Source: Streptomyces tuirus
GTDB lineage: Bacteria; Actinomycetota; Actinomycetes; Streptomycetales; Streptomycetaceae
Assembly: GCA_018195615.1 (NCBI GenBank)
Contig: JAGTPG010000002.1
Coordinates: forward strand, 3,961,501-4,025,500
DNA length: 64,000 bases
Direction: 5' to 3'
Part shown: positions 2,686 to 12,110 of the stretch, one piece after another
Layout of the letters: each line of letters begins with the position of its first letter
Position numbering within the stretch: the first letter of the stretch is position 1
Program-made: the position numbers and the translations under genes
The notes under the pieces: model-generated
The model's database searches: none
What the model saw: the letters and a program-made list of their open reading frames with translations, nothing else
What the model was told of the DNA's origin: nothing

Positions 2686-5536
2686 TCACAGCAGCCCGTC
2701 CCACATCTGCTCCAGCAGCACCGACCACCAGCTCTCCGGCGACCCGAGCGCCGCCGGGTCCAGCGCGGCCAGCTGCGCCTGGAAGTCGACGGTCCAGCGG
2801 CCCGCCTGCTCCTGGTTCAGCCCGAACCTGAGCCGCCACATCCGCCCGAGCAGCGCCAGGCAGCGCGCGAACTCCGGCAGCCCGGTGTTCACGAACTGCG
2901 GCGGTACGGGCGCCCCGCCCGGCCCGGCCTCCACCGGCACCGCGACGATGTTCGCCGTGCCGTACTGCACGCAGATCGCCTTGCCGAAGTCACTGCCCAT
3001 CACCAGGTAGGAACCCGCGTCCGAGGCCGGCTGCACACCACGCTCGGCCGCCAGCTCCGCCAGCGTCGGAACGGGCCGCCCGGGCTGGGCCTGTGCCCAG
3101 AAGAAGGGGCCCATGTCCATCGGCAGACCGGCCACCACGAGGGTGTGCGCCACGACCGGCGGCACGCCCTGCCGGGACACGGCGGCCTGCTCGAACCGGA
3201 ACACTCCCGGCCCGAACGCGGCACCCAGCTCCTGTGCGATGCCCTCCGGCGGGATCGGCGGCGCCGGGGGCACCGGCGGCAGCGGCGCGCGCACCGGAGC
3301 CGGACGCGCCGGGCCGTCCGCCACCTGGTGCAACTCGCCCTGGTGGGCGAGCAGTTGCTGCATGCCCTGCTGCCGGCTCGCGTGGTCCGTGCCGTACGGC
3401 GCGATGCTCGTGATCCGCGCCTGCGGCCACTGCTCCCGGATCATCCGCGCGCAGTACGCGCCCGGCAGCTCACACGACTCCAGCTCGGTGTGCAGCTCCA
3501 GCACCTGGTCCGGAGGCACGTTCATGCCCCGCAGCTCGTGGAAGATCTGCCACTCCGGGTGCGGCGTACCCGGCGCCGAACGCCGGATCAGCTGCTGCTC
3601 GGAGCCGTCCTGGGCGCGGTAGCGCAGCACGGCCTGGTAGCCGGGACCGACCGTCGGCTGCCCGGTGGGCTGCTGCGGATAGCCGTACGCCGCAGGCTGC
3701 CCGGGGACGGGCTGACCGGGCGGCGGCACCGCGCCGGGCGGCATCGGCGGGACCGCACCGGGCACGCCAGGAGCACCCGGGGCGCCCGGAGCGCCGGGTG
3801 GTGCGCCGGGGGCCTGCGGCGGCGGAGGCACGCCGGGGCCGCCCGGCGGGGGCGCGGCCAGCATGGTCTCCGCGTGGTGCACGGGACCCGAGCCAGCGCC
3901 GGGCGCCCCGGGGGCACCAGGCGCACCGGGCGGATTCGGAGCACCCGGAGGCTGGGGCGCACCAGGAGCACCCGGAGGCCCCGGAGGCGGAGGCGCACCC
4001 GGGCCCGACCGACCGGGGTCGGCCAGCATCGTGGCCGCATGGTGGACACCACCGGGGGGCGTACCGCCAGGAGCGCCGGGCGGCTGCGGGGCGCCAGGCG
4101 GCTGCGGCGCGCCCGGAGGACCGGGCGGCTGCGGGGCGCCAGGCGGCTGCGGCGCGCCCGGAGGTCCGGGCGGCTGCTGAGGAGGCATCGGCGCACCCGC
4201 GCCCTGCGCACCCCCGCCCCCGGAGAACCCCCCGGGACGCCGGAACCGCCAGGGCCCGCGGGACCGCCAGGGCCACCCGGCCCCTCCGGACCAAGCGCCG
4301 ACACCATCTGCGTCGGCACGTACCCACCCGCCGGAGTACCCGGCGCCCCGGGCCCTGACGGCGGAGGCGTACTGCCCGGCCGAGCGCCCGGCGTCCCCGG
4401 GGCGCCCGGCGGAGGCGGCGTGGTCGGGCCCGCGCCCCGCCGGCCCGGCGGCGGAGCCGCCTTGCTGGTCGCGGCGTCGGCGATGTCCCCCGCGTTCGGC
4501 GCGGGCGTACTCCCCGGCACGCCCTGCGGATAGCCGTACGGCTGCTGCCCACCCGGAACAGGCGGAGGCGTACTGCCCTGCGGCGGCAGGCCACCGGGCG
4601 GCGTACCGGGCACACCACCGGGCGGCGTTCCCGGACCACCGGCAACGGCACCCGCCCCCGGCGGATAGCCATAGCCCGGCCCACCAGGCGCAGTCGCACC
4701 ACCCGGCGCACCACCCGGCGCACCACCCGGCGCGTTCGGATCCTCGATCGCCGGCGAAACCGCCGTCGGCGGAAGCTGGCTGCCCCCGACATCAGCGCCG
4801 TCTCGGCGTCGGGCGCCGCCGTCGGCGGCGCGTCTCCGTCGGCCTCGCTCAACGGCGGCGCGAAGACCGTCGCGGGCAGCGGCACGGAACGGTCGTCACC
4901 GGCATCCGCGTTGGTGTCCGTACCGGCCCAGGGCGTCGCCCCGGCAGGCACACCCGGCGCCCCGCCCCCGGAGCCGCCACCGGTCCCGGAGTCACCCCCG
5001 CCGGCAGCCGGCCACGAGGCGCCGCTCCCGGAAACGGAATCACCGACGGAATCACCGACCGACCCACCAACAGGCTCAGAATCCGAAGCAGCGGCCGAAG
5101 CAGAGGCCGGCGCGGAAGCCGAAGCAGCACCACCACCCCGCCGATCCGGAATCCCCATCTTGTCGGCGGCATCCTGCAACCACTCCGGCGGAGTCAGCAG
5201 GAACGACGTCTGATTCAGATCCACCCGCGCGGGAGGAGCCGGCGCCGGCTCCTCCACCGCGTCCGGACGGCCGTACTCCTCCTCGTACCGGCGGATCACC
5301 TCGCCCACCGGCAGCCCGGGCCACAGCGTCGCCTCACCGCTGTCCCGCGCGATCACCAGCCGCTGCGCGCCACCGTCCGAACGCGGCCCGTCCGCACGGT
5401 CCTCGGCCCACACCACGAACCCGAGGTCGAACTCCCGTACCCGCACCTCACGATGCTGGTACAACGGCAGGTCACCGTTGATCCACTCTTCCGCGCGCTC
5501 CTGCGCCTGCGCGAAGGTCACCATCGCTGACGTCAC
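2686..5536 (-). CDS. Imm35 (YrhB) / deaminase / SUKH-4 fusion protein (two frameshifts)
   Basis: About 950 residues once two missing bases are restored. Residues 1-95 form an Imm35/YrhB-type domain (RLVIARDSGEATLWPGLPVGEV). Then comes a roughly 500-residue Pro/Gly/Ala-rich linker with short motifs such as HHAATMLA and HHAETMLA. A deaminase-like domain follows, resembling the XOO_2897 family: HPE near base 3557 and the paired cysteines of ESCELPGAYC near 3465. The C-terminus is a SUKH-4-like domain ending WWSVLLEQMWDGLL. Frame changes lie in the C run at 4783-4787 and at about 4211-4240; both fit one lost base. The GTG at 5536 overlaps the upstream stop (GTGA); an ATG at 5524 is an alternative. 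SUKH and Imm35 domains normally neutralise toxins, so toxin and immunity modules share one chain. No signal peptide is visible. Confidence 0.75.
4078..4167. repeat. 45-bp tandem repeat in the Pro-rich linker
   Basis: Two copies at 4078-4122 and 4123-4167 differ by one base. They encode repeated PPGAPQ/PPGPPGAPQ units on the minus strand. A partial third copy follows on the right. Confidence 0.8.
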
Positions 5537-6537
5537 TCCCCCACAGCCGAGGACGACACCGAGCCCACCGGCGCCACACGCGCGAACCCGCCGTCCACCA
5601 TCAGATTCGCCACCGTCTCCAACTCCGGCGGATTACCGGCCAGCCGCGACAGGAAGACGTCGAAGTCGTCCCCGCACGGCAGCAGCAACCGCTCCACCCG
5701 CTCCGCCGGCGGCAGCGAGGGATCCACGTCCCGCGCGTCGTCGTACGCGCAGAACCACACCGACCCGATCCGGTCGCCCTTCACCTTCACGGCCAGCAAC
5801 CCGCCCTGGACGAAGGCGATCCCCAGGTAGTCCTTGGTCAAATGGTCACGCAGACACTTGTTGACGTACACCAGGTCGTTGACGGCCGCCTCGTCCCGCA
5901 CCGTGAAGAACGGCTGGTCGACCAGCAGCCCCAGCTCCGCGTCCAGCGCGGCACCCACCGGCGCACAGCCACCCGCCGCCTTCAGGAACGACCGGTAAGG
6001 ACCCGGCAGCCGGTAGCCGAGATCCTCCTCGACCCCCTGCACCTGCGACTCCGTCACGGCCGCGCCCGACTTCGGCAGCCCGAAGTGCGCCGGACGCGTC
6101 TCCTGCAACGGCCGCGTCCCCCGCTTGCCGTGGTCGACACCCGACGTCGCCACACCGCCGTGGTGCCGCAGCAACGCCTTCACCTCGACCGGAACCAGCT
6201 CCAGCCGCCGCGAACCCACCACGTGGTGCCACGTCCAGCCGTGCGGCGTCGCCACCGCCGGCACCGTGTCCCACAGCTCATGCCCCGACGCCGACAGCGC
6301 CGTGTTCGCCGACACGTAGTCCGTCAGCCGCAACTCGTCGACACCGAAACCCTCCGGCGGCTCCGCGATCTCCGCGGCCGCACGCGCGTAGGGCGAGAAG
6401 TCGGGGTAACCACGCTCGTCCACCCGTACCCCTCTCGGGTGACGGGCCGCCCGGACCGGATCCGGGAAATGCACGACCTGCCCGGCGTAGGCCGCGTTCG
6501 GCGGCGCGGCTTGCTGCCCGAGCCGACCTGTCGTCAT
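5533..6537 (-). CDS. WHH-type HNH nuclease-like / SMI1-KNR4 (SUKH) fusion
   Basis: A 334-residue protein. Residues 85-130 match the WHH branch of the HNH/Endo VII fold: W103-H104-H105, then LELVP and a GG at 127-128. The usual LVPxxxH histidine is lysine (K120), although H125 is kept. The C-terminal half (about 145-330) is a SMI1/KNR4 or SUKH domain, with YRLPGPYRSFLKAAGG and GDDFDVFLSRL. Normally the nuclease is the toxin and SUKH is the immunity domain; here they are one chain with no secretion signal. The lysine may mean weakened catalysis. The ATG at 6537 has an AGGGGG ribosome-binding site; a GTG at 6558 is possible. Its stop overlaps the start of the downstream deaminase/SUKH-4 gene. 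Confidence 0.8.
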   Translation of the reverse strand: MTTGRLGQQAAPPNAAYAGQVVHFPDPVRAARHPRGVRVDERGYPDFSPYARAAAEIAEPPEGFGVDELRLTDYVSANTALSASGHELWDTVPAVATPHGWTWHHVVGSRRLELVPVEVKALLRHHGGVATSGVDHGKRGTRPLQETRPAHFGLPKSGAAVTESQVQGVEEDLGYRLPGPYRSFLKAAGGCAPVGAALDAELGLLVDQPFFTVRDEAAVNDLVYVNKCLRDHLTKDYLGIAFVQGGLLAVKVKGDRIGSVWFCAYDDARDVDPSLPPAERVERLLLPCGDDFDVFLSRLAGNPPELETVANLMVDGGFARVAPVGSVSSSAVGE

Positions 6538-6914
6538 GGCGGTTGCCCCCTGCGGCACTCTGTACGACCCGTATTGACCACCTCTGGCGCACTACGGCCC
6601 GTATCGACTGTCACGTCTGCTGTCTCGACTTCTCTGCACTTCACTGCACCCGCCGGCATCCACGGATCACCCTCCGGTTCACTGCATCGATCTCCGAACG
6701 GATCACCGCATCGCCCGCGGTGCCGACAGCCTATGCGGTACGACGAGACCGGTCACCGGCGCCGGTCGGCGGCCCCTCCGCTTCCGTGACCAGCCGTCAC
6801 CCCACCGTGACGGCACGCCCCGGAACGGGCGTGTCGCCCCGCCCCAGCTTCCGCACCAGCCACGGCATTTGGCAGTCTGTGACCCCCGGGGGATGCACGG
6901 AGGGGAATACGATC
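6538..6914. promoter_or_regulatory. Divergent control region with inverted repeats
   Basis: This 377-base gap separates the two arms of the deaminase/SUKH locus, so it should hold both promoters. At 6793-6814 there is a perfect 8-bp inverted repeat (GCCGTCAC / GTGACGGC, 6-base spacer). It is followed at once by a 7-bp one at 6814-6833 (CACGCCC / GGGCGTG, 6-base spacer). Further left, the motif TTCACTGCAYC occurs twice (about 6632 and 6679), with a related ATCACCGCATC near 6700. No gene is seen here. Confidence 0.55.
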
Positions 6915-7520
6915 ATGAACGCGACACAGACGGGACCACACACCGGCAGGTCCGCCGACCCGCGAAACGGCGCCCCGCGCACCGGTGACCCGCGCACCGG
7001 TGACCCACGAGACGGGGACCCTCGAAGCCGCGACCCACGAAGCGGCGACCCCCGCATCGGCTGGAGCAGCACCGAAGCGGCCCACACTCCCGTCCTCCAC
7101 CACCGTCGCGACGGCATCCTCCCCACCGTCGCCGCCGCCCTCTCCGTCCGCGGCACCACCCTCACCGGCACCGCCGCCCGCGGCGACACACCCCCGGCCC
7201 TGCACCCCCTTGTCCAGGACTTCCTGGACACCCTCACCAGCGCTCAGCGCGACCGCTTCACCGGCCGCTGCGCAGAAACCATCCTCATCTCCCGCCACAT
7301 CGCCGCCGCCGACGCCACCCGCAGCAAACGCGCGGCCCGCAAACCCATGACCAACGGCGAGGCCCGCAAAGCCCTCAAGCAGGCCAAACTCACCGCCCGC
7401 CGTATCCGCGAGGACGGCGACCCCCTCCACGGCAGCTTCGCCACCCCCTGCCGCGCCTGCACCGCGCTCAGCGCCCACTTCGGCGTCCGCATAGTCGACC
7501 CGGCGTCCCAGAACGGCTGA
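6915..7520 (+). CDS. YwqJ-related putative nucleic-acid deaminase
   Basis: The 201-residue protein has a YwqJ-type deaminase domain (about 93-195). The zinc/catalytic motif is C119-A-E121 inside RFTGRCAETI, and the second motif is P178-CRAC (cysteines 179 and 182). The N-terminal 50 residues are mostly a five-residue repeat, GDPRx, encoded by near-identical 15-base DNA repeats. Family members are toxin deaminases predicted to act on nucleic acids or nucleotides. There is no signal peptide or secretion-associated domain, so action inside the producing cell is likely. Start at ATG 6915, preceded by GGAGGGG. The next gene, 73 bases downstream, encodes a SUKH-3 protein, the classical immunity partner for this deaminase class. 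Confidence 0.88.
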   Translation: MNATQTGPHTGRSADPRNGAPRTGDPRTGDPRDGDPRSRDPRSGDPRIGWSSTEAAHTPVLHHRRDGILPTVAAALSVRGTTLTGTAARGDTPPALHPLVQDFLDTLTSAQRDRFTGRCAETILISRHIAAADATRSKRAARKPMTNGEARKALKQAKLTARRIREDGDPLHGSFATPCRACTALSAHFGVRIVDPASQNG

Positions 7521-7593
7521 CGCCCCCCCCACAGCACCCCGCACCCGGCGCGCACCCCACGCCGCCCCATGACCTCGACGAGACGAAGGGCAG

Positions 7594-8088
7594 ATGCACA
7601 CCGACCGCACCTCGACCACCCGCTTCGCCGTACCCGTCGACGCCGCCCTGCGCGCCGCCGGCTGGCAACCCGGACGCTGGGACATCAAACAGGCCGAGAT
7701 CTGGGCCGACGCCCTGCGCGACCACGTCTCCCCCGCCGGCCACCGCCACAGCGTCTTCCCCGCCGCCGTCGAGGCCTGGGCCGAGTTCGGCGGACTCCAC
7801 ATCACCCCCACCGGCCCCGGCCGCCAGGTCGCCCCCGCCGCCCTCCACCTGGACCCGCTGCACGGCCTCCACATGGCCCGCACCCTCGGCGACCTCGGCC
7901 GCGCCCTCGGCACCGAGGTCTGCCCCCTCGGCGCCGAGACCGACAGCCAGGCCCTCCTCGCCATCGACACCGACGGCCGCGTCTACACCCTCGACCACAC
8001 CGGCGACTGGTACCTCGGCCCCGACATCGACCAGGCCCTCTCCACCCTCATCGCCGGCACGGAACCGACCCGCCTGACCGCCGGCTGA
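7594..8088 (+). CDS. SUKH-3 family immunity protein
   Basis: A 164-residue SUKH-3 domain protein: AALRAAGWQPGRW near the N-terminus, VEAWAEFGGLHI in the middle, and a C-terminal segment with VYTLDHTGDWYLGPDI. SUKH proteins bind and neutralise nuclease and deaminase toxins of polymorphic toxin systems. It follows the YwqJ-type deaminase on the same strand and is probably co-transcribed, so it is the likely antidote. It converges on the histidine kinase gene, whose stop lies 21 bases away. The sequence is intact and its codon usage matches its neighbours. Target specificity is inferred from position only. Confidence 0.9.
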   Translation: MHTDRTSTTRFAVPVDAALRAAGWQPGRWDIKQAEIWADALRDHVSPAGHRHSVFPAAVEAWAEFGGLHITPTGPGRQVAPAALHLDPLHGLHMARTLGDLGRALGTEVCPLGAETDSQALLAIDTDGRVYTLDHTGDWYLGPDIDQALSTLIAGTEPTRLTAG

Positions 8089-8109: not shown

Positions 8110-9406
8110 CTACGACGCCGGAATCACCGCCGACACCCGAAAACCCCCCGCGTCCGTCGGCCCCGACACGAACACCCCGCCCAGCGCGGACACCCGCTCC
8201 CTCATCCCCACCAGCCCATTCCCCCGGACGGCAGCCGAGCCGACGCCGCCGCCTCCTCCGGCGGCTCGTTCTCCACCTGCATCGCGATCTCCGACACCCG
8301 ATGCGCGAGCCGCACATACGTCTTCGCCCCCGCCGCGTGCTTGTGGACGTTCGTCAACGCCTCCTGCACCACCCGATACGCCGTCTGCTCGACCTCCGGC
8401 GCATACGACCGGGCATCCCCCTCCACCGACAGAGCCACCACCATCCCCGCGGCAGCAGACTGCCCCACCAGCTCCTCGATCTCCGCCAGACACGGCCCGT
8501 CATCATCGGCCGCCCTCGACGCCGCCGCGGCTGCAGCCACCCCCACCGCCACCAGCGGCACCGACGCGGCACGCTCCCGCCGCTCGCCCCCACCACTGCG
8601 CAGCACCCCGAGCATCTCCCGCAACTCGGTCAGCGCCTGCCGCCCCATGTCCCCCACCAGCGCCGCGTTCTTCACGGCCTTCTCGGGATCCTTCCGCGCC
8701 ACGGCCTGCAGCGCCGCCGCATGCACCACCATCAGACTCACCCGATGCGCGACCACGTCGTGCATCTCCCGGGCGATCCGCGTCCGCTCCTCGTTCCGGG
8801 CCCACTCGGCCCGCTCCTCCGCCCGCTCAGCCAGCAGCTGCAGCTCCCGCTCCAGACTGTCCGCACGCTCCCGCAGACTCTCCATCAGCCGCCGCCGGGC
8901 CCCCACGTACAGACCGAGCAGCACCGGAGGCGCCGTGAACCCGAGCGACATCGTGATCGACGCGAACGGCACGAACCAGTCCCCAATGTCCAGGTCCCCC
9001 CGCGACACGTCCTGCTGCGTCTTCACGAACGTCACGATGAGCGTCCCCACCAGCGACATCCCCGCCAGTGCGCCGATGATCCGCCGGGGCAGCTCGGCCG
9101 CGGCCAGGGTGTACAGGCCGACGATGCCCAGCACGAAACCCATCTGGGCGGGCGTGATGGCGATCGAGACCAGCACGACCGCGATCGGCCACCGCCGCCG
9201 CACGACCAGCACGGCGCCCGCGAGCCATCCGAAGACGACCCCGCGGACACCGGGATCCCCGCGTCCCTCGCGAACGGAACACCCTCCAGCGCGCACTCCA
9301 GCGCGGACACCACGGCCAGACTCACATCGAACACGGCACTGCGCCGTCTGGCCCACCACCACGGCCCTCCCCGGGCCGTCACATGGTCTTCCCCCGTCGC
9401 GGTCAT
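8110..9406 (-). CDS. Orphan two-component sensor histidine kinase (two frameshifts)
   Basis: About 432 residues after restoring two bases. The N-terminal half has several hydrophobic membrane segments, then a coiled linker. The HisKA_3 dimerisation box is RIAREMHDVVAHRVSLM, with the phospho-accepting His in EMHD. The ATPase domain follows, with AYRVVQEALTNVHKHA as N box and GNGLVGMRERV near the end once the frame is corrected. Frame changes fit one missing base each, near 9240 (CCCC) and 8222 (CCCCC). This is the NarL/LuxR-partnered class, but no response regulator lies beside it; the nearest, at 22810-23577 and 37956-38648, are far away. Its signal and partner are unknown. Start at ATG 9406. 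Confidence 0.8.
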
Positions 9407-9567
9407 GCCTCCAGCCTACGGGCGCCCGCCGCCGGTTTTCCGGTGAGTTTCCCGGACTGGCCTACACCACACTCCGTGACCGTTCGGATGCAGTACCACC
9501 CGATATCCCTCGAACTGCTGAATCGCTCACCGTTCGACCCCGGAGCCCTCCATTCCGCCCGGACGGT

Positions 9568-10446
9568 ATGCGTATGACACATGCGCCTGGCACATACGCC
9601 GACTTCGAGGGGTTGCGGGAGAGGGCGGTGGCGTTGCGACGCGCGGGGCTGAGCCGCCGCCAGATCCGCGACCGACTGCACGTCGACAACAACGACATCC
9701 TCAACCGCCTCCTCCAGGGCGAACCCCCGCCGGACTGGACGAGGCGCCCGAACGCGAAGGACGACCTCAAAGAAAGGGCCAGGGAACTCCGAGTCCAAGG
9801 CTGGACCTACGACCAGATCCAGGTGGAGCTTGGGTGCTCGAAGAGTTCGATCTCGTTGTGGGTGCGGGATCTGCCCAAGCCGGAGCGCAAGCGAACCCCG
9901 GAGGAGGCGTCGGCGATCGCGAGGCGGGGCTGGGCAGCCACCCTGCGCCTGCGCGACGAGGAACGACAGCACACGAAGGAGACAGCGAGGCGAGCGGTCG
10001 GCGAACTCTCAGCCCGAGAGCTGTTCCTGCTGGGCGTCGGCCTCTACTGGGCCGAGGGCGGCAAGGACAAGCCCTACGACCGCCGCGAGAACGTCTGCTT
10101 CGTCAACAGCGACCCCGGCATGATCGGCGTGTTCATGGCCTGGCTGGACCTGCTGGGGGTGGAGCGTGAACGCATCCGGTTCACGGTGATGATCCATGAG
10201 TCGGCCGACGTTGCGGGCGCCGAGAAGTACTGGGCCGACCTCGTCGGCGCCGATCGGTCCGCCTTCAACAAGACAACACTGAAGAAGCACAACCCGAAGA
10301 CGCGCCGCAAGAATGTCGGCGATTCCTATCGAGGTTGCCTGGTCATCAAAGTCCTGAAGGGTGCGGATCTATACCGTCGCATCGAGGGGTCCTGGTACGG
10401 CATAGTGGAGTCCGCACGCAAGGCCGATCATCTAAATCGGACATAG
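9568..10446 (+). CDS. Tandem-HTH protein with LAGLIDADG-like C-terminal domain
   Basis: A 292-residue protein that I do not recognise by name. The N-terminal half holds two helix-turn-helix-like units: LRRAGLSRRQIRDRLHV (about 20-37) and LRVQGWTYDQIQVELG (about 70-90, followed by SKSSISLWVRD). The C-terminal half has features of a LAGLIDADG-type fold: FLLGVGLYWAEGG near 150, then VNSDPGMIGVFMAWLDLLGV, and a later segment with CLVIKVLKGADLYRRIEG. This suggests a DNA-binding protein derived from a homing-endonuclease-like fold, as in WhiA. Whether it cleaves DNA is unknown. Start is ATG 9568 or 9574. The stop lies only 11 bases before a tRNA gene on the same strand. Confidence 0.65.
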   Translation: MRMTHAPGTYADFEGLRERAVALRRAGLSRRQIRDRLHVDNNDILNRLLQGEPPPDWTRRPNAKDDLKERARELRVQGWTYDQIQVELGCSKSSISLWVRDLPKPERKRTPEEASAIARRGWAATLRLRDEERQHTKETARRAVGELSARELFLLGVGLYWAEGGKDKPYDRRENVCFVNSDPGMIGVFMAWLDLLGVERERIRFTVMIHESADVAGAEKYWADLVGADRSAFNKTTLKKHNPKTRRKNVGDSYRGCLVIKVLKGADLYRRIEGSWYGIVESARKADHLNRT

Positions 10447-10457
10447 CGTGCACTTTA

Positions 10458-10528
10458 TCCCGGATCGTCTAAGGGTAGGACAAACGGTTTTGGTCCGTTG
10501 AATGAGGGTTCGAATCCTTCTCCGGGAG
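10458..10528 (+). tRNA. tRNA-Gln (anticodon TTG)
   Basis: The acceptor arms TCCCGGA and TCCGGGA pair perfectly over 7 bp. The D arm has the GG pair. The anticodon loop is TTTTGGT on a 5-bp stem (AACGG/CCGTT), giving anticodon TTG. The T arm is GAGGG-TTCGAAT-CCTTC. G follows as discriminator base and CCA is not encoded. Confidence 0.95.
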
Positions 10529-10553
10529 CCCACAGAGCACACCAGCTCGGTTC

Positions 10554-10585
10554 GGGGCCTGACCGATGACCCCCGGTCAGGCCCC
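10554..10585 (+). terminator. Intrinsic terminator after tRNA-Gln
   Basis: A perfect 12-bp stem, GGGGCCTGACCG with CGGTCAGGCCCC, closes an 8-base loop. It lies 26 bases downstream of the tRNA and before glmU. There is no U tract, as is usual for high-GC actinobacteria. Confidence 0.85.
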
Positions 10586-10661
10586 ACACCCCCACCCCCC
10601 ACAAAACCCCCCGGTATCCTGCGGATGTCACCCCACCCCATCCACAGCCGAAGGGCATCCC

Positions 10662-12110
10662 GTGAGCGCCAACCGCCCGGCAGCCGTCGTCGTTCTCGCA
10701 GCGGGTGAGGGCACCCGTATGAAGTCGGCCACACCCAAGGTCCTGCACGAGATCTGTGGCCGCAGTCTCGTGGGGCATGTGCTCGCCGCCGCAGGCGAGC
10801 TGAACCCCGAGCACCTGGTCGTCGTCGTCGGCCACGCGCGTGAGAAGGTCACCGCGCATCTCGGTGAGATCGCCCCGGACGTCCGTACCGCCGTACAGGC
10901 CGAGCAGAACGGCACCGGGCACGCCGTACGGATGGGGCTGGAGGAGCTGGGCGGGTCCGTCGACGGGACGGTCGTCGTCGTGTGCGGCGATACGCCCCTG
11001 CTCACCGGCGCCACCCTGCGGGCTCTCGCCGCCACCCACTCCGCCGACGGCAACGCGGTCACCGTACTGACCGCCGAGGTGCCGGACGCGACCGGCTACG
11101 GCCGGATCGTGCGGGACGACGCCACCGGTGCCGTGACGGCGATCGTGGAGCACAAGGACGCCACCGATGCGCAGCGGTCGATCCGTGAGATCAACTCGGG
11201 TGTGTTCGCGTTCGACGGTCAGCTGCTCGCCGACGCGCTGAAGAAGGTGCGGACGGACAACAGCCAGGGTGAGGAGTACCTGACGGACGTGCTCGGGATC
11301 CTGCGTGAGGCCGGGCACCGGGTGGGCGCCTCCGTGGCCGGCGACCATCGGGAGATCGCGGGGATCAACAACCGTGTGCAGCTCTCCGAGGCTCGCCGGA
11401 TCCTGAACGACCGGTTGCTGACCGAGGCCATGCTCTCGGGTGTCACGGTGATCGATCCGGCGACGACCTGGGTCGACGTGACCGTCACGTTCGAGCAGGA
11501 CGTCGTCGTCCACCCGGGCACCCAGCTGCACGGTGCCACGCACCTCGCCGAGGGTGCCGAGGTGGGGCCCAACTCCCGGTTGTCCGACACGCGTGTGGGT
11601 GCGGGTGCGCGTGTGGACAACACCGTGGCGATGGGTGCCGAGGTGGGACCGGACACGAGCGTGGGGCCGTACGCGTATCTGCGTCCGGGGACCCGGCTGG
11701 GTGCCAAGGGCAAGATCGGCACGTACGTGGAGACGAAGAACGCCACCATCGGGGAGGGGACGAAGGTGCCTCACCTCTCCTATGTCGGGGACGCGACGAT
11801 CGGTGAGCAGACGAACATCGGTGCCGCGAGCGTCTTCGTGAACTACGACGGTCAGGAGAAGCACCACACGACGATCGGTTCGCACTGCCGTACCGGTTCG
11901 GACAACATGTTTGTGGCGCCTGTCACGGTGGGGGACGGTGCGTACACCGCCGCCGGGTCCGTGATCACGAAGGATGTGCCGCCCGGTTCGCTGGCTGTGG
12001 CCCGTGGTCAGCAGCGGAATATCGAGGGTTGGGTGGCTCGTAAGCGTCCGGGGAGCGCGGCGGCGAAGGCGGCCGAGGCGGCTTCCCGGGAGTCGGCCGA
12101 GGAAGGCTGA
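10662..12110 (+). CDS. glmU: Bifunctional GlcNAc-1-P uridyltransferase / GlcN-1-P acetyltransferase
   Basis: The 482-residue protein makes UDP-GlcNAc, the precursor of peptidoglycan and teichoic acids. The N-terminal uridyltransferase domain has [20 protein letters not shown] at about 12-31, followed by QNGTGHAV and VCGDTPLL. The C-terminal half is a left-handed beta-helix of hexapeptide repeats ([20 protein letters not shown] and following), with the conserved [12 protein letters not shown] and [10 protein letters not shown] segments. Length fits the family. Start is GTG 10662, with GAAGGG upstream; the ATG further left is out of the conserved region. The gene is intact and followed 129 bases later by prs. 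Confidence 0.97.

Follow-up and report, generated by a model that had tools for sequence, protein, structure and literature searches.

A putative HTH-LAGLIDADG endonuclease linked to a hypervariable tRNA-Gln(UUG) gene in Streptomyces: a possible natural home-and-rescue system

LAGLIDADG proteins are known to act as DNA endonucleases or as intron maturases. One of them, I-DmoI, originates from an rRNA intron and is a monomer with two LAGLIDADG motifs. SegB of phage T4 is a GIY-YIG enzyme. In polymorphic toxin/immunity loci, a conserved N-terminal part is combined with an exchangeable C-terminal part that is linked to a downstream partner. The nearest precedent involving a tRNA region is SegB, cited in PMC10448857 as a free-standing homing endonuclease that favours inheritance of the T4 tRNA gene region. 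WhiA (DUF199), which combines an HTH with a LAGLIDADG-type domain in Streptomyces, is described as a regulator with a degenerate N-terminal LAGLIDADG domain, a C-terminal HTH and key catalytic residues lost (PMC3781837). Finally, in synthetic home-and-rescue drives a nuclease is described as being linked to a functional, recoded version of the needed gene that it targets (PMC8996256).

Here we studied a gene from a 64,000-nucleotide stretch of DNA (hereafter the window) that belongs to a Streptomyces-type genome of 9.0 Mb, rated 85% complete. The gene lies at 9568–10446 on the forward strand, encodes a protein of 292 aa and ends with a TAG stop codon at 10444–10446; a second ATG at 9574 would give a 290-aa form, whose residue numbers are used below. 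It was followed on the same strand, after 11 nt, by a tRNA-Gln(TTG) gene of type T2 (of 13 types, see below), assigned by ARAGORN to 10458–10530 and matched by Rfam RF00005 at 10458–10528 with 53.8 bits; no other tRNA-Gln(TTG) was found in the genome. The original prediction of such a protein 11 bases upstream of tRNA-Gln is thus confirmed by the open reading frame and by both tRNA searches. The gene is a free-standing ORF, outside introns and inteins; its 5' neighbour, on the opposite strand, is a gene for a histidine kinase (HisKA_3), and its 3' neighbour is the tRNA-Gln gene. The genes 3' of the tRNA are, as we take it from their reading frames, glmU (from 10662 on), prs, an L25-like ribosomal gene and pth. 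A single match to the gene was found in its own genome, and the named loci nearest to the window protein are from Streptomyces. It should be mentioned that genes of polymorphic-toxin type lie close to the locus, at 5533–8088: one for a protein with both WHH nuclease and SMI1/KNR4 (SUKH-1) domains on the reverse strand, and, on the forward strand, one for a YwqJ-like deaminase and one for a SUKH-3 immunity protein.

An AlphaFold2 model built from the window protein and 65 Streptomyces relatives (pLDDT 82.2, pTM 0.56) places two HTH units of three helices each in the N-terminal part, the first at residues 11–46 (9604–9711) and the second at residues 61–97 (9754–9864). For the second, Pfam gave an HTH_23 match at residues 74–101 (E 3.2e-6). 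The model continues with a long, highly variable linker helix at residues 109–142 (9898–9999), and the median aa distance between alleles reaches 0.51 across residues 100–145. The predicted LAGLIDADG domain occupies residues 145–282 (10006–10419) and contains the motif GVGLYWAEGGK at 10033–10065, in which E161 is encoded at 10054–10056 and K164 at 10063–10065.

The assignment of this domain is based on two kinds of comparison. VIA-align of the model ranked I-DmoI (residues 100–187) first and E-DreI third, with a best Z of 7.5, which falls in the range rated common by that tool, and an rmsd of 2.5 over 85 aligned residues with 24% identity. Independently of the structure search, a profile of 27 diverse members (alignment A1) matched I-DmoI with a best E of 0.006, and the alignment paired LYwaEGtK with LYVAEGDK. 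The likeness concerns the second half of I-DmoI, where the LAGLIDADG motif with E and then K (E161/E117, K164/K120) is followed by a similar strand and helix; E117 is a catalytic residue of I-DmoI. The LAGLIDADG helix ends in this acidic residue, which marks membership of the superfamily. Foldseek against the PDB gave no significant match for the model (best E 8.5e-3, unrelated folds). Searches of the window protein against Pfam, NCBIfam and PHROG gave no LAGLIDADG-type match, and Pfam saw only HTHs or HTH-like fragments. PADLOC gave weak matches only, to mad1 in 10 of the 27 members (best E 1e-5) and to capH in two. E161, K164, N178 and D180 are invariant in all 142 distinct Streptomyces-type alleles, while the domain as a whole, these active-site residues notwithstanding, has a median aa distance of 0.34 across alleles; in the 27 rows of A1, the position of E161 is occupied by E in 26 and by D in one. 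Taken together, the model and the profile give moderate support for a LAGLIDADG superfamily core fold. The earlier description of a two-HTH, LAGLIDADG-like protein therefore holds, both HTHs being modelled and the LAGLIDADG domain matching I-DmoI, and the proposed check by structure prediction and catalytic acidic residues found the core with its active-site residues intact.

The protein differs from I-DmoI in having one motif per chain and two N-terminal HTHs, and in being encoded by a free-standing gene beside a tRNA. WhiA had been named as a precedent; the comparison does not support this, as the order of the domains is reversed in our protein (HTHs at 11–97, LAGLIDADG at 145–282) and its active site is intact. 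WhiA was absent from the VIA-align rows for the model, a result compatible with some likeness between the two.

Next to a tRNA gene is where the relatives of this gene are found as a rule. Among 179 relatives from named genomes, whose titles name Streptomyces and in one case [Kitasatospora], the best 80 were inspected, and all 80 had a tRNA-Gln gene just 3' on the same strand. Outside the genus, 25 loci were retrieved from other actinobacterial genera, many of the remaining matches being weak and confined to the HTH part. In 24 of them, a tRNA gene overlapped the gene or lay within about 150 nt: on the same strand at or near the gene end in 20 loci, as an opposite-strand tRNA-Asn at the gene end in two, and as a divergent upstream tRNA-Glu, within about 150 nt, in two more. 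The exception, L056, is truncated by the contig end and has a tRNA-Met 180 nt upstream. The placement is not one of chance: by way of comparison, the regions of ±200 nt around the 68 tRNA matches of the window genome make up about 0.3% of its 9.0 Mb. The homologues thus do sit beside tRNA genes, which had been set as a check of the original prediction. Class-level searches, with three genomes each, revealed no further genome with a match.

The tRNA species adjoining family members is Gln, Asn, Lys, Thr or Glu, and it tracks the sequence group of the protein. All five Gln-group loci outside Streptomyces are beside glmU, so the gene appears to be an old resident of this place. In the genus sample described below, the gap between stop codon and tRNA is between –20 and 60 nt in 75 of the 77 loci with intact genes, with a median of 12 over the 77. 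In other genera the contact may be closer: in six of the 20 same-strand loci (L040, L041, L043, L046, L047, L053) the stop codon is formed by bases 8–10 (TAG) of the tRNA, so that processing of the tRNA 5' end would strip the stop codon from the mRNA, and in four others the frame ends elsewhere in the tRNA or past it. The tRNA-Asn genes beside relatives had, judged by eye, no variety comparable to that of tRNA-Gln(TTG).

To describe this variety, we used 150 genomes of the genus, of which 94 had a match to the protein and 56 had none. The sample consisted of 115 loci including the window: those of all matching genomes except L307, and those of 22 of the 56 non-matching genomes. The loci of the 22 non-matching genomes and of eight genomes with weak matches were located via glmU. 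L307 (genome G121) was dropped; it has an inverted duplication of the gene, without glmU, and is possibly an assembly artefact. By a permissive criterion, a single open match covering 215 residues or more, the gene was intact at 77 loci, decayed at 19 and lost at 19; two of the 77, L269 and L300, matched as two pieces and are probably frameshifted near the end. The tRNA-Gln was present at 113 of the 115 loci, both exceptions being loci where the gene is lost, and 36 of these 113 keep the tRNA without an intact gene. These 36 loci make it less likely that the protein serves the host by sensing or protecting the tRNA. Type T1 was carried by 20 of the 36 loci without an intact gene and by 17 of the 77 with an intact gene, and was thus commoner among the former (Fisher p 0.0006, without regard to phylogeny).

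The tRNA inventory was established for the window genome and for genome G013 by typing all 68 Rfam tRNA matches of each with ARAGORN. Each genome has a single tRNA-Gln(TTG), which adjoins the gene, and two tRNA-Gln(CTG) that differ in sequence; we assume that tRNA-Gln(UUG) is needed by the cell. No CAA codon is found in glmU, prs or the L25-like gene, and the HTH-LAGLIDADG gene has a single one. Over the 43 anticodons shared by the two genomes, the median best identity was 100%, and tRNA-Gln(TTG) was the lowest with 64%. Low values were also observed for tRNA-Leu(CAA) (74%; L253 in the window genome, L374 in G013) and tRNA-Leu(TAG) (76%; L248 and L375); other tRNA genes may also have been replaced, as these sequences would suggest, or a tRNA may have been acquired. 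In the genus, tRNA-Gln(CTG) was 83–100% identical to that of the window genome among the matches listed, and the tRNA-Gln(TTG) of the 113 loci fell into 13 types at 85% single linkage, with a median pairwise difference of 0.32 and a maximum of 0.49. Rapid ordinary mutation was considered as the main source of this diversity and rejected: identical or nearly identical tRNAs recur in distant species, and close relatives can have unrelated ones. Phage relatives of two tRNA-Gln(TTG) sequences had 74–82% identity among the matches listed and are uninformative on origin.

Comparison of the locus with its flanks indicates exchange in place. Stricter filters left 69 intact genes, 59 of them with both flanks. 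In these 59 loci the distances of the flanking genes correlated with each other (Spearman 0.705), while those of the gene agreed less with the flanks (0.384) and those of the tRNA had a correlation of –0.045 with them. On a tree computed with FastTree from the flanks of 95 loci, the tRNA type needed 48 changes, against a mean of 56.6 and a minimum of 49 in 1000 shuffles, and the gene status 24 changes, against 24.2 when shuffled. The tRNA type thus retains a little of the flank history and has lost most of it. A common tRNA type was shared by 57% of the pairs with a glmU aa distance below 3% (n=23), by 28% at 3–6% (n=106) and by 12.5–16% beyond.

Closely related species, with flanks about 95% identical, are often distinguished by a single block, which commonly extends from behind the HTH-coding part to just past the tRNA. 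For instance, L296 and L301 are mostly more than 90% alike to about –600 from the tRNA start, 44–70% alike from there to about +100, and then 90–100% alike. A change-point fit of 33 pairs with flank differences of at most 10%, among which genomes recur, found a replaced segment in 30. In 15 of the close pairs both genes were intact and the tRNA types differed; all 15 had the right edge at +78 to +148 from the tRNA start, corresponding by offset to 10536–10606 of the window. The left edges of the same pairs were found at –638 to –566 in eight cases, at –822 to –746 in four, at –1110 in one and at –51/–50 in two. The commonest left edge, at –590 to –566 in 10 of the 30 fits, transfers to 9868–9892 of the window, just past the second HTH. 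Fits that involved decayed or lost genes, or indels near +186, had other edges.

The two parts of the block can also change separately. Similar genes are followed by different leaders and tRNAs (T2 and T7) in the pairs window/L003 and L002/L003, with blocks from –50 to +78 and from –51 to +90, respectively. Conversely, the LAGLIDADG half is replaced despite an equal tRNA type in L011/L028, L279/L287 and L019/L025. The mobility suggested in the original prediction fits with local between-species exchange of gene and tRNA.

Linkage between protein allele and tRNA type was measured on 142 distinct alleles, using the closest decile of pairs among those with glmU more than 8% different, and 500 permutations. 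Pairs closest in the LAGLIDADG domain had the tRNA type in common in 41.7% of cases, compared with a mean of 15.5% and a largest value of 26.7% in the permutations. The value was 41.1% for pairs closest in the gene end, 23.8% for the linker (largest permutation 22.1%) and 15.2%, equal to chance, for the HTH part. Hence LAGLIDADG alleles and tRNA types tend to travel together and the HTH part does not, a partial linkage as judged from these alleles. The pairing is not absolute, and similar proteins can adjoin different tRNA types. The linker helix (residues 106–145, about 9889–10008 in the window) is the most variable part of the protein; its columns covary with the tRNA type with a mean z of 7.6, compared with 2.4–2.5 in the HTH half and 4.0–6.9 in the LAGLIDADG segments. 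The gene tail covaries even more strongly (z 16.5, partly owing to gaps from differing tail length). The linker helix may contribute to specificity, as this covariation suggests.

The coding 3' end contains a conserved 34-bp cis element, element A, at 10373–10406 on the forward strand, about 50 nt 5' of the tRNA. It is retained, with at most four mismatches, in 33 of the 36 loci without an intact gene; two of the other three have a TAAGGT box 17 nt 5' of the tRNA instead, and L192 has neither. With one base shuffle per upstream stretch as control, none of the 113 stretches matched, even at nine mismatches. A TA.GGT box is present in tRNA types T4, T5 and T13. In full-length genes with one of the other tRNA types, the codon for Ile277 is the rare ATA in 48 of 51 cases, compared with none of 18 in T4/T5/T13, and at the remaining Ile positions of these genes ATA makes up 11 of 488 codons; similarly, Arg268 is CGT in 48 of 51 genes of the other types and in one of 18 in T4/T5/T13. 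The likeliest role of element A is that of a tRNA promoter. This role is proposed from comparison of the loci, since a simple sigma-70 scan of 9400–10700 gave no promoter or terminator. Co-transcription of the gene with the tRNA, proposed earlier, seems not to be required, as the probable promoter sits in the coding 3' end and mostly outlasts the gene.

The system would work like a free-standing homing endonuclease. More specifically, we propose, with about an even chance of being right, that the chromosomal gene encodes a free-standing LAGLIDADG endonuclease directed at the tRNA locus, and that it brings along a divergent tRNA which is functional, as a natural counterpart of home-and-rescue; cleavage, target and essentiality are what we infer here. 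The target would probably be the adjoining tRNA gene or its border. After DNA transfer, for example by conjugation, the enzyme would cut the differing tRNA allele of the recipient, and repair from the incoming copy would replace the tRNA together with the half of the gene that sets the specificity. Homology arms would be provided by the conserved HTH-coding part at one end and, at the other, by the sequence on the glmU side, 3' of the tRNA. As the incoming tRNA would be divergent, functional and spared by the enzyme, the element could both attack and replace a needed gene. The genes would decay afterwards, with the embedded element and the tRNA persisting. Several observations speak against this reading: the pairing of protein and tRNA type is loose, the left edges vary, the tRNA type keeps a little flank history, gene status changes on the tree as often as in shuffles, the Gln-group genes are old residents beside glmU, the tRNA-Asn genes beside relatives lack a similar variety, and the structural match is of moderate strength. 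Compared with SegB, the putative enzyme is of LAGLIDADG type and encoded on the chromosome, searches of phage and plasmid records gave no match to it, and its tRNA belongs to the cell itself, being the sole tRNA-Gln(UUG) in the two genomes checked. Synthetic home-and-rescue drives are engineered, Cas9-based and used in insects; the system inferred here would be natural and bacterial, with a tRNA as the rescue.

Part of these data can also be explained if the tRNA is under outside diversifying selection, for example by phage or competitor nucleases acting on tRNA-Gln, and is swapped by ordinary homologous recombination with the gene hitchhiking. The change of leader and tRNA without the gene, when the window or L002 is compared with L003, would agree with this, as would the fading of linkage with distance from the tRNA, which is also expected of plain co-transfer; in principle, exchange is possible without an endonuclease. 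However, hitchhiking leaves unexplained why homologues occur at five tRNA species in the phylum, why the active site is intact and why the LAGLIDADG half is replaced at an equal tRNA type in the three pairs named above. We consider this explanation unlikely.

Slightly less probable still is a toxin with an immune tRNA, in which the protein would act on tRNA-Gln RNA or kill cells with a foreign allele and the linked tRNA would be the resistant antidote. The conserved N-terminal part, the swappable C-terminal part and the linked downstream partner do resemble polymorphic toxin/immunity loci, and tRNA-Gln(UUG) has no second copy in the two genomes checked. Unlike in such loci, the partner is a tRNA gene and no immunity protein, and the pairing is not absolute, similar genes tolerating two tRNA types; moreover, the HTHs point to DNA, and the known activities of LAGLIDADG proteins also count against a toxin.

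A domesticated regulator of the WhiA kind, controlling the tRNA or co-transcribed with it, would account for the combination of HTH and LAGLIDADG domains and for the long residence beside glmU in several families. We regard it as improbable: all 142 alleles have kept the active site, whereas WhiA is described as having lost key catalytic residues (PMC3781837); at 36 of 113 loci the tRNA persists although no intact gene is left; an element of its own, located within the coding region, seems to serve the tRNA; and there is turnover of alleles among closely related species. A prophage relic or integrative element attached at the tRNA is very improbable: tRNA genes are indeed common integration sites, but the gene lies 5' of the tRNA, synthesis of the flanks shows synteny on both sides with about 95% identity in close pairs, and the tRNA sequence itself is replaced. 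Among 72,556 plasmid and 50,697 phage records, none matched the window protein. The distant members L041 and L047 had no plasmid match, and L047 no phage match; four single-protein scans of viral contigs found no relative, a weak negative as the patterns were narrow.

Returning to the endonuclease with its divergent working tRNA, a wider hypothesis can be put forward, more tentatively and with less than even confidence. The LAGLIDADG enzyme would attack rival single-copy tRNA alleles and install a cut-proof tRNA, as a natural home-and-rescue drive; an arms race of specificity would have led to a genus-wide hypervariable tRNA, and the promoter in the enzyme's frame would block complete deletion of the gene. 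The tail of such a selfish gene could not be deleted because it carries the tRNA signal, which fits the frequent decay of the gene with the tRNA kept. What is new here is the tRNA-Gln(UUG), sole in the two genomes checked yet hypervariable, the block exchanged between close species, the tendency of LAGLIDADG alleles and tRNA types to move jointly, and the embedded element that mostly outlives the gene. Judged on titles and abstract openings, the matches listed in a full-text literature search included no such tRNA-linked family and no hypervariable Streptomyces tRNA-Gln.

If true, the recoded-rescue logic of synthetic gene drives would already exist in bacteria, at a tRNA gene, and could be studied in soil streptomycetes, which are harmless. 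It would also explain how a housekeeping tRNA can differ by almost half of its bases within one genus. Element A would provide a clear example of how a tRNA promoter can lie within the coding sequence of another gene and outlive that gene. As the family occurs beside Gln, Asn, Lys, Thr or Glu tRNA genes, the prediction of targets and their testing would be direct.
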